A stretch of DNA of 39,824 nucleotides, taken from assembly GCA_028865345.1 (NCBI GenBank), contig JAGWKL010000013.1, positions 1 through 39,824 of the forward strand, given 5' to 3'. Every line of letters starts with the position of its first letter. Within the stretch, counting starts at the first letter, position 1. The DNA comes from Candidatus Omnitrophota bacterium. GTDB lineage: Bacteria; Omnitrophota; Gorgyraeia; Zapsychrales; Fredricksoniimonadaceae. The notes below the pieces were generated by a model, which was not told the origin of the DNA, did not search any database, and was given only the letters and a program-made list of their open reading frames with translations. Shown piece after piece: positions 36,941-39,708 of this stretch. The position numbers were made by a program, and so were the translations under genes.

Positions 36941-36966
36941 AGGGGATATACAACGTGGGGTAAAAA

Positions 36967-37040
36967 CGCGCCTGACAGGATTCGAACCTGTAACCCTCAG
37001 TTCCGTAGACTGATGCTCTATCCAGTTGAGCTACAGGCGC
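36967..37040 (-). tRNA. tRNA-Arg(ACG), CCA not encoded
   Basis: Minus strand GCGCCTGTAGCTCAACTGGATAGAGCATCAGTCTACGGAACTGAGGGTTACAGGTTCGAATCCTGTCAGGCGCG; loop CTACGGA. Confidence 0.95.
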
Positions 37041-37058
37041 AAATAACACAAGTTATTT
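37041..37058. repeat. 7-bp inverted repeat abutting the tRNA-Arg 5' end
   Basis: AAATAAC (37041-37047) ACAA GTTATTT (37052-37058). Confidence 0.6.
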
Positions 37059-37070
37059 ATTTACAGCATG

Positions 37071-38249
37071 TTATGAAATATATAGATTCGGCGAACTTTC
37101 CGCTTTTTGCTCCGGTGTCCAAAAAGTGTCTATCTTTTTGGCCAATAAATCCACCGCCTGCTTCCTGTGGTCCGGGGATAAATGAGCGTATCTTAAAGTC
37201 ATATCCATGCTTTTATGGCCTAAAATCTCGCGAACAGTATTCAGAGCCACACCATTCATAACCAGGTAACTGGCACAACAGTGCCGCAGGTCATGAAAGT
37301 GAAAATCTTTTATACCAGACTTCGTAATGGCTGTAAAGAAGGATTTTTTAATATCTTTGATCTGGGCCCCGTCCTTATGGCAGAAAATATACTCGCTTTG
37401 GGGATTTCTCCTGACTCTAATGAGCGCGGTCTTGACCGCCTCATTCATAGGAACTTCCCTTCTCTGGCCATTCTTGGTATCCAGCAAGTAAATAATGCTT
37501 CTTCTGAAGTCGCAATCCCTCCATTTAAGCCCTAAAATCTCCCCTTTTCTCATTCCTGTGTGCAACGCAACCAGGACAATCGGCTTTAAAATCCCCCGGC
37601 AAAATGACAATAACTTCACCAATTCATTAGGCTCAAGAAAACGAACACGCGTATTGTTCTCCTTGAAAAATTTAACCTTCCTGACCGGATTCTGTCCCTG
37701 GAACTTGCCCCAATCAATAGCGCGGTTAAAAAGGCTTTTGAGCACTATCAACTGCCGGTTGACCGTGGCCGGCTTTAAGCCTTTTTTCTTACGCGTGGTG
37801 TCCTGCAGGCGATCGGCTTTAAACTTCTCGATCAGGTGGGGAGTAATCTCATGCAGGCATTTGCCTGAAAAATATCTCTTAAGAATGTTAAGGTTGTTTG
37901 CGCTAAAGCGGTCCCACGATTTGAGATTGGGTTTACAGTAGACTTCGAGAAATTCATCGGCAAAATCTTCGAACTTGATCCTTTGTTCTTTTTTCTTATC
38001 AAGAAATTTTCCTTCGGCAATTTCGACCTTGCGCTTGTCATCAGCGATTTCCGCAAGCCTCCTGTCCGGACCAACCTTTTCCCTTATTCGTCGGCCATTA
38101 AAATAACGCTCCATGAAAAAATTGCCTTTGCGCGGATCAACGGCAATTTTCCTATCACAGCCTTTACAGCAGATCTTCCGTATCTGTTTGTCATATACGT
38201 TGTGGTAATGTCCGCAATCCGGGCAGCTGACGCGATTAAAAACAGCCAT
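37071..38249 (-). CDS. Tyrosine recombinase/integrase with N-terminal zinc-ribbon-like domain
   Basis: Catalytic set: ALHTGMRKGEILGLKW (R), TKNGQRREVPM (K), HFHDLRHCCASYLV (HxxR), EILGHKSMDMTLRYAHL (H...Y). N-terminus CPDC-x13-15-CCKGC. Confidence 0.93.
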   Translation of the reverse strand: MAVFNRVSCPDCGHYHNVYDKQIRKICCKGCDRKIAVDPRKGNFFMERYFNGRRIREKVGPDRRLAEIADDKRKVEIAEGKFLDKKKEQRIKFEDFADEFLEVYCKPNLKSWDRFSANNLNILKRYFSGKCLHEITPHLIEKFKADRLQDTTRKKKGLKPATVNRQLIVLKSLFNRAIDWGKFQGQNPVRKVKFFKENNTRVRFLEPNELVKLLSFCRGILKPIVLVALHTGMRKGEILGLKWRDCDFRRSIIYLLDTKNGQRREVPMNEAVKTALIRVRRNPQSEYIFCHKDGAQIKDIKKSFFTAITKSGIKDFHFHDLRHCCASYLVMNGVALNTVREILGHKSMDMTLRYAHLSPDHRKQAVDLLAKKIDTFWTPEQKAESSPNLYIS

Positions 38250-38254
38250 AATAT

Positions 38255-38668
38255 TTATCCATTTTTAGGGAACCGTTTCACGCCACACTGGTAGAATCTC
38301 TCTGCCTGTTGGGCGATTTCAGCCGCTTCGCTTGGACGAAACTCACGCCCTTCATAAGCAATCATATGTTTTTTAGCTATAATTTTCTCAAAATTACGCC
38401 CCTGTTGGACAACATTATCAGCGGGAATACGAGATAGTAAATCGGAAGCTTGCCTGTGATCTTCACCGCTGAATCTCTTCGCAAGAAAATAGATGGCCAG
38501 AGCATCGCTTAAAGATATCGCGCAATGCACAGCATTTAATCCGGTAGAATGCCACAAACCCTGCTCTTGCGATAACTTCATGCCTTGATAAAAATCGGTC
38601 GCTTTATTCAAGTGCGAAATATATTCAGTCTGTTTAACGCTGACAGTTTTTAAAATTTTAGCGGTCAT
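38255..38668 (-). CDS. HEPN-domain-like protein
   Basis: All-alpha; STGLNAVHCAISLSDALAIYFLAKRFSGEDHRQASDLL...KKHMIAYEGREFRPSEAAEIAQQAERFYQCGVKRF resembles SAV_6107-like HEPN; ATGA overlap with upstream nucleotidyltransferase. Confidence 0.7.
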   Translation of the reverse strand: MTAKILKTVSVKQTEYISHLNKATDFYQGMKLSQEQGLWHSTGLNAVHCAISLSDALAIYFLAKRFSGEDHRQASDLLSRIPADNVVQQGRNFEKIIAKKHMIAYEGREFRPSEAAEIAQQAERFYQCGVKRFPKNG

Positions 38669-39282
38669 TCAATTTTTTCCAGTTTTTCTCCCCAAATTAT
38701 CCGGTGGGATTTAAAAATTGATTTGATCACAGCCAATTCACGGTCCCTCTTTAACTCGGCAATTGATTTGACATACGGCTCCATCCCCATTCCAACCCAT
38801 GATTGCAAATTGTTCATTGAAAAGAACAAATTCTCAACTGGATTTTTATATCTTGCTTCTTTAACAACGGCAAATATATCAATATCGCTGCCCGGCTTTT
38901 CCCTTTGTTCATGAACACTGCCAAACAGGGCAACAGACACTATTTGTTCAGAAAGCGGGGAATGCTCTATTTCTTGGGAAACATGTCCTAAAAACGAGTC
39001 AAAAAGCTTCTTTTCTTCTTTGAATAGCGGCTCCAACAACCTTGTCACGATCCATCTGTTCCTGTTTAACTCATAGATATTGGCTTTCCCCGCTCCCCGC
39101 ACCAGAATGAGTTGCTCGTCAACCAGAACATTCAATGCTTCGTTTACCGTTGTCCGGTTGATTTTGATAAATTGAGCCAATTGCCGGCCTGTTACAAAAG
39201 TCCGGTAATGGCATAAAAATCTTAAAATGGCAACCTTTGTCCGGCTGTCCAAAATTTGGCTAAGAGGGTCATGAAGTCTCAT
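38665..39282 (-). CDS. Winged-HTH + nucleotidyltransferase (MNT-type) fusion
   Basis: N-terminal wHTH (VAILRFLCHYRTFVTGRQLAQFIKINRTTVNEALNVLVDEQLILVRGAGKANIYELN); NTase motif VALFGSVHEQREKPGSDIDIFAVV (GSx..DxD). Confidence 0.85.
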   Translation of the reverse strand: MRLHDPLSQILDSRTKVAILRFLCHYRTFVTGRQLAQFIKINRTTVNEALNVLVDEQLILVRGAGKANIYELNRNRWIVTRLLEPLFKEEKKLFDSFLGHVSQEIEHSPLSEQIVSVALFGSVHEQREKPGSDIDIFAVVKEARYKNPVENLFFSMNNLQSWVGMGMEPYVKSIAELKRDRELAVIKSIFKSHRIIWGEKLEKIE

Positions 39283-39287
39283 ATACT

Positions 39288-39328
39288 ATGTCCGGATTGT
39301 CTGACATATGTCATAAATTACTGACATA
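39288..39328. promoter_or_regulatory. Candidate operator: overlapping TGACAT/ATGTCA repeats upstream of the wHTH-MNT gene
   Basis: ATGTC (39288-39292), perfect 12-nt palindrome TGACATATGTCA (39302-39313), TGACATA (39322-39328). Confidence 0.55.
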
Positions 39329-39428
39329 AGAATACCTCACATTTAACCCCCTGTCAATTTAAAATTCAGAAAGCCTATTGTCAAAGATCCAAACAATCTT
39401 CCTATTAATCCTTATAAACCCCACGCTT

Positions 39429-39508: not shown

Positions 39509-39626
39509 CTCCCATTTGCTACGGTTTAGTTCGAGACCCCTATCTCCCGTTAAACCTATGGTTGGGAGAGAGGGGTCTCGAACGTTTTTGGCCGCTTTGC
39601 GCCAAAAAAACCGTTGCAAATGGGAG
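39509..39626. repeat. Compound palindrome with three-way-junction geometry
   Basis: P1 39509-39527/39608-39626 (19 nt, one T-T mismatch); P2 39529-39548/39564-39583 (20 nt, one A-G mismatch); P3 39585-39592/39601-39608 (8 bp). Confidence 0.75.
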
Positions 39627-39643
39627 GGTTACAGCACAAAAAA

Positions 39644-39683
39644 ATTACGGTAGGCATTACAAATCTGTAATGGCTACCGTAAT
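39644..39683. repeat. Long imperfect hairpin
   Basis: attacggtaggcattaca (39644-39661) - aatc - tgtaatggctaccgtaat (39666-39683); 17 of 18 paired, one G-G mismatch. Confidence 0.75.
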
Positions 39684-39708
39684 GCCATCCGTAACGACAA
39701 AATAGATA

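Follow-up and report, generated by a model that had tools for sequence, protein, structure and literature searches.

Near one end of the window (the whole 39,824-nt stretch that was analysed, which is one entire contig, C1, of a draft assembly with 65 contigs and 94.7% completeness), three minus-strand genes encode a wHTH-nucleotidyltransferase (MNT), a HEPN-domain protein and a tyrosine recombinase (INT). The locus raises the question of whether this trio is an undescribed addiction-plus-mobility system, as the original prediction had it, or part of a larger element. The tight coupling of the three genes had been placed correctly, including the 4-nt ATGA overlap of MNT and HEPN at 38665–38668 and the 5-nt gap between the HEPN stop and the INT start. 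A tRNA-Arg(ACG) gene, absent from the earlier description, lies on the same strand 30 bp downstream of the INT stop, and the contig end cuts the element 542 bp upstream of MNT. The features are collected in Table 1. In the labels used below, C stands for contigs of the source assembly, G for related genomes and L for loci.

The explanation that best joins these features, to which we assign a probability of about 0.75, is that the trio forms the attR end of an integrative element, that the MNT-HEPN pair occupies an exchangeable toxin–antitoxin (TA) slot, that MNT represses the unit and that a promoter embedded in int serves the captured tRNA.

Table 1. Features at the integrase end of the window and their coordinates.
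Feature	Position	Strand	Remarks
wHTH-nucleotidyltransferase (MNT), 205 aa	38665..39282	(-)	intact GSX10DXD; putative autorepressor and antitoxin; PDC-M05A match
HEPN-domain protein, PF05168 type, 137 aa	38255..38668	(-)	conserved K100-x4-Y105, no RX4H; putative toxin/effector
INT, tyrosine recombinase (integrase), 392 aa	37071..38249	(-)	N-terminal CxxC/CxxC zinc-ribbon-like segment
tRNA-Arg(ACG)	36966..37041	(-)	made whole by the element's 5′ half
Predicted sigma-70 promoter of the MNT-HEPN-INT unit, TTGACA-17-TATTCT	39329..39357	(-)	
Operator-like palindrome TATGTCA-N8-TGACATA, directly after the -10	39307..39328	(-)	
Promoter-like site within the INT CDS, facing the tRNA, TTTACA-N17-TATAAA with TG extension	37309..37337	(-)	
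Arm-type integrase site AGATAGACACTTTTTGGACAC, int 3′ end	37115..37135	(-)	repeated inside the left ends of elements
attR core, 41 bp, tRNA 5′ end to anticodon loop	37001..37041	(-)	perfect attL copy at C59:11610-11650

INT matched Phage_integrase with E=4e-34, and the catalytic R, HxxR, H and Y of tyrosine integrases were present in its translation (GMRKGE, HDLRH, LGHK and RYAHL, respectively). An intact same-strand tRNA started −130 to +310 bp from the INT stop in 32 of 44 integrase loci. Upstream of related integrases we observed direct repeats of the tRNA 5′ half, 37–41 bp long and ending at the anticodon loop, at a distance of 27.7 kb in G011, ~23–26 kb in G138, G110 and G186, and 7.6–8.9 kb in L128, L132 and L154. 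An arm-type repeat (TGGACACTTTTTGGACAC-like) accompanied them, at the int 3′ end and again inside the left end. The left end of the window element was predicted from the structure of these related elements and then found on contig C59, as a perfect copy of the 5′ half of the window tRNA with an arm site 114 bp further in, 421 bp from the contig end. A left end for the related integrase on C50 was likewise found, on C48. The window and C59 together hold an intact tRNA, a direct 5′ fragment and the integrase between them on two separate contigs; the same arrangement was present on single contigs in G011, G138, G110, G186, L128, L132 and L154. Judged from the sequence, the window trio is the right (attR) end of an integrative element inserted in a tRNA gene, and we infer the join of C59 to C1 from the att repeat. 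Insertion would have occurred through recombination within the anticodon loop of tRNA-Arg(ACG), with the element bringing its own tRNA 5′ half at the int end so that an intact tRNA lies directly behind INT; the original promoter and 5′ half of the host gene would then be left at the far end, on C59.

The complete counterpart is the 27.7 kb element of G011, where the trio and the att structure lie on a 116-kb contig. It carries T4SS genes (VirB4/6/8/9/10-like), a coupling protein, an HTH_17 Xis-type gene, MNT, HEPN, INT and tRNA-Pro, in addition to a possible relaxation-type gene and a PLD-helicase/methylase pair. Conjugation, coupling and possible relaxation-type genes lie inside the att bounds, as in an integrative and conjugative element (ICE), by homology and size. 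By analogy with G011 the window element is most likely also an ICE; its contig ends before the Xis and T4SS genes. Sister genomes have the tRNA-Pro site unoccupied; G022 is one example, its left flank running directly into the tRNA. This empty-site test was made at tRNA-Pro in place of tRNA-Arg; an empty tRNA-Arg site, sought via the ICMT gene, was not found, and the neighbourhood differs in the relatives. The G011 cargo (L041/L167, G011:C5 28525-36512) comprises PLD-helicase, large methylase, ImmA-type protease and PIN-like genes and is possibly a defence system on the ICE.

The MNT protein combined a wHTH with a nucleotidyltransferase domain (Polbeta and NTP_transf_2 above the gathering score), and its GSX10DXD motif (G121-S122-x10-D133-x-D135) was invariant in 23 members of the family. 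The HEPN domain was not detected from the window protein by itself, and single-sequence structure prediction gave a pLDDT of 42. Of the HEPN families, members of the window family matched only PF05168 (22 of 26 members, best E=1.6e-10), with no match to PF01934 or PF08780. K100 and Y105 were invariant in this family, in which the RX4HXY motif was looked for and was absent, as was RX4H. Homologs of the pair occurred in 44 of 191 relative genomes. As nearly every HEPN homolog lay directly downstream of MNT, the pairing is far from chance. Single-protein searches of genome and viral collections returned no relatives, and a plasmid search returned none for HEPN and weak matches only for MNT. Two pairs without INT (L047 and L042) lie 232 and 605 bp before same-strand tRNA-Ser and tRNA-Pro genes, respectively, and are possibly element remnants. 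Long proteins of 384–492 aa (L086–L089), mostly encoded as adjacent pairs, also matched the HEPN family profile.

The pair had been assigned to MntA/HepT, and this exact class did not hold, since its HEPN lacks the class-defining RX4HXY. Like MntA/HepT (type VII TA) and the Class II pairs (PMC7641770), the window pair has MNT upstream of HEPN, GSX10DXD and a tight overlap. It differs from MntA/HepT in the fusion of MNT to a wHTH, in the missing RX4HXY, and in a score of 23.5 bits on the NCBIfam MntA model, far below the 60-bit cut-off. A PF05168 HEPN beside a PF01909 MNT, with no RX4H and with a conserved tyrosine, is what defines the Class II HEPN/MNT modules of PMC7641770, and on these sequence features the pair fits that class rather than MntA/HepT proper. 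The toxicity of the HEPN protein is uncertain because the RX4H RNase motif is missing.

The wHTH fusion itself is not new, since PADLOC already holds a wHTH-MNT as PDC-M05A, which was matched by the window MNT (E=1.6e-13) and by all 23 MNT members. This match is one ground for reading the pair as defence cargo (abortive infection or anti-conjugation, as in the candidate PDC-M05) in place of an addiction module. The restriction-like look of the PLD-helicase/methylase pair in the G011 element points the same way, as does AbiE, a TA system that also acts in abortive infection and sits in the slot of sister elements. The second component, PDC-M05B, was weakly matched by 2 of 26 HEPN family members (best E=0.004). 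PDC entries are candidates with no assigned mechanism, and this one, to the extent that the available description tells, does not include placement beside int in an integrative element. Defence is also compatible with addiction and does not exclude it. We regard the defence reading as a serious possibility that nevertheless falls short of even odds.

Returning to the preferred reading, in which the pair is a TA module with MNT as its repressor, a promoter scoring at least 10/12 was found within 150 bp of 39 of 46 homologous MNT genes (3% of control stretches). An inverted repeat after the -10 was found at p<0.05 in 21 of the 46, with ~2 expected. Because promoter and inverted repeat recur upstream of MNT homologs, the wHTH of MNT likely autorepresses its own unit, by binding the palindrome over the promoter and so holding down the MNT-HEPN-INT transcript. 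The proposal of a self-regulated module is therefore consistent with the operator-like palindrome, which is seen in homologs too. As no gap apart from the 5 nt separates HEPN from INT, the pair could also set recombinase expression, and autorepression of the unit probably does so, in line with the further idea of the original prediction. If MNT dropped, for example after excision or element loss, HEPN would become more active and more integrase would be made at the same time, and loss would be penalised.

Integration into tRNA genes normally retains the native promoter. The tRNA-Pro genes at homologous, mostly unoccupied sites had a mean promoter score of 9.6/12 and a perfect TATAAT in 20 of 23 cases, while the 120 bp before captured tRNAs scored 8.1, against 7.9 for the control. 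The left junction in G011 retained TTTCCA-17-TATAAT. Comparison of these sites shows that capture of the 5′ half separates the tRNA from its native promoter. In the window this concerns tRNA-Arg(ACG), of which no second copy was found in the assembly.

A candidate replacement was found in int itself. Close integrases carry TT(T/G)ACA-N17-(TGG)TATAA(A/T) inside the gene, immediately ahead of the HDLRH motif; its form in the window is TTTACA-N17-TGGTATAAA, with the -10 ending 267 bp before the tRNA. A site scoring at least 9/12 was present in 24 of 32 tRNA-abutting integrases and in 1 of 10 others (Fisher p=0.0004), in a discovery set where this association is confounded by phylogeny. For most integrases with the site, it was the unique best promoter in the gene. 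The codons S311 (TCT), G312 (GGT) and I313 (ATA) were the top three of 206 codon columns in synonymous constraint (p 3e-13 to 2e-11), closely followed by T306 (ACA, the -35) and the arm-site codons. In new genomes the site was found in 8 of 8 close INT relatives, and the same register was empty in more distant ones. Over all hold-out loci the association with the tRNA configuration was not significant (7/23 vs 0/4, p=0.55), and the proposal that an embedded promoter goes with the 5′ configuration in integrases at large, unsupported by the hold-out, was narrowed to the close subfamily. Many distant integrases have a perfect TATAAT 101–109 bp (8 loci) or 313–315 bp (6 loci) before the tRNA, a post hoc observation that was partly rechecked. 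An earlier candidate, dependence of the tRNA on the TA promoter alone, was dropped once the embedded site was found. In L141 and L133, of the same integrase family, a tRNA-Asp 3′ fragment lies behind int and the embedded site is absent; L141 has the intact tRNA at the left end. The tRNA configuration has switched in these two loci within one integrase family.

The embedded site is, by this evidence, a putative promoter for the captured tRNA, which would be transcribed from ~267 bp upstream, independently of the operon, in place of the displaced promoter. The same site could be read as a binding site for Int, Xis or a host factor, with the tRNA transcribed by operon read-through. Arm-type sites in int are likewise under DNA-level constraint, and the distance from the site to the att core is fixed at 264–272 bp in 24 of 33 loci, as for an att-complex site. 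Read-through has a parallel in archaeal pTN3, where the tRNA is separated from its promoter, int is disrupted and expression from the integrase promoter was proposed (PMC8371274, PMC5495485). Against a binding site speak the match to the sigma-70 consensus at exactly 17-bp spacing with an extended -10, the rank of the site as the unique best promoter in most such genes, its absence from the relatives that have a tRNA 3′ fragment behind INT, and the perfect TATAAT boxes at other fixed distances in more distant 5′-capturing integrases. We consider the binding-site and read-through reading unlikely, at perhaps one chance in a few. For the promoter reading in its wider form the balance tips slightly in favour: a bacterial integrase family would capture tRNA 5′ halves and carry within int a tRNA promoter maintained by selection on its codons, with separate subclades having evolved it at different positions, and int loss without excision would silence the tRNA, an addiction on top of the TA pair.

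Among known systems, tRNA-targeting islands with a 5′ tRNA fragment number 159 of 3919 in Islander (PMC4383910). These islands and the pTN3-like integrases resemble the window element in having attB in the tRNA 5′ half and an intact tRNA, off its original promoter, beside int. The window family differs from the pTN3-like integrases in being bacterial, in keeping int intact on integration and in a conserved promoter-like site inside int. In ICEKp1 the host tRNA promoter drives int in a state-dependent manner (PMC13023037), also a transcriptional link between target tRNA and int, with the opposite direction to the one proposed here, where the int site would drive the tRNA. In tRNA-dependent lysogeny (PMC10865867) the element likewise takes over supply of the targeted tRNA, but those phages carry a whole tRNA gene, whereas the window element reconstitutes the tRNA and would supply a substitute promoter. 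A literature search of incomplete coverage found no description of an int-internal promoter serving a captured bacterial tRNA.

Elements that capture 5′ halves must make up for the promoter loss, and the bacterial solution is seemingly not worked out in the literature found. A promoter inside the integrase reading frame, if true, would solve the problem simply and generally, could be recognised by its synonymous constraint, and would add a second kind of addiction to such elements. The int gene would then be both a recombinase gene and the promoter of a host tRNA, here the sole tRNA-Arg(ACG) found. The locus is not an undescribed system as to element type and TA class, which are known; what is new is the variant, with its candidate int-embedded tRNA promoter.

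The dedicated system of the original prediction, in which MNT, HEPN and INT evolved as one unit with toxin/antitoxin status controlling the integrase, can be weighed against the contents of the slot. Members of the integrase family sit behind a ~60-aa HTH_17 (Xis-type) gene, often also with a coupling-protein gene. The slot between the Xis-type gene and int was empty in some loci, held MNT1-HEPN1 in the window and G011, a different wHTH-MNT with a small gene on C50 of the same assembly, and AbiEi-AbiEii on its contig C47 and in G026. In the window the slot would hold MNT-HEPN, and the excisionase-type gene known from G011 would lie past the point where the contig stops. In the integrase tree the C50 integrase and the G011 integrase were sisters (100/99), both at tRNA-Pro(GGG), and the window integrase was placed elsewhere. 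As these sisters carry different pairs and G011 shares its pair with the window, the cargo has been exchanged.

Linkage of the integrase to the pair, the co-occurrence on which the dedicated system depended, was found twice, in the window and in G011, with the same gene order and closest-relative proteins. This is well in excess of a rough neighbour expectation, as ~46 pairs in ~380,000 gene positions (191 genomes) predict far fewer than 2 beside ~28 integrases, and the promoter with its operator-like palindrome is common to the unit. Nevertheless INT adjoined the pair in only 2 of ~46 pair loci, and the second-closest pair (L040) had no INT start in the 493 bp downstream. In most of its loci the integrase family is without the pair, and other two-gene nucleotidyltransferase modules take the slot. 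Since sister integrases thus carry other modules, the integrase is, from these gene neighbourhoods, not dedicated to the MNT-HEPN pair, and it works at many tRNA sites in the pair's absence. A dedicated three-gene system is thus improbable; what survives of the addiction-plus-mobility proposal is a mobile unit that carries an MNT-HEPN pair. Chance neighbourhood or an assembly artefact, for which the 65 contigs and the nearby contig end might speak, is very improbable given that the trio and att structure recur on the long G011 contig.

TA pairs on integrative elements are known from mosAT of the SXT ICE, which promotes SXT maintenance (PMC2654960), and from HipAB of a Shewanella genomic island (PMC8978831). 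Those belong to other families, and the window pair differs in sharing one transcription unit with int, between int and the Xis-type gene. The exchangeable slot offers a natural series on how TA autoregulation might tune integrase supply.

Several smaller observations concern the surroundings of the element. Two long palindromes lie upstream of MNT at 39520–39705 of the window; part of them (39636–39700) is repeated at C48:171-235 with 88% identity, and they may be small repeats or terminators close to where the contig breaks off. An integrase-like DNA fragment is present in the source genome just before tRNA-Lys(CTT) (L092, C41 8310–8390). Directly left of the window's attL, a fragment at C59 11543–11600 (L093) resembles an integrase 3′ region, which suggests an earlier element at the same tRNA-Arg. 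In L135 (G026:C46) a second, partial integrase and a 65-bp repeat of 91% identity lie 3.3 kb upstream, apparently tandem elements at one tRNA-Pro(CGG).
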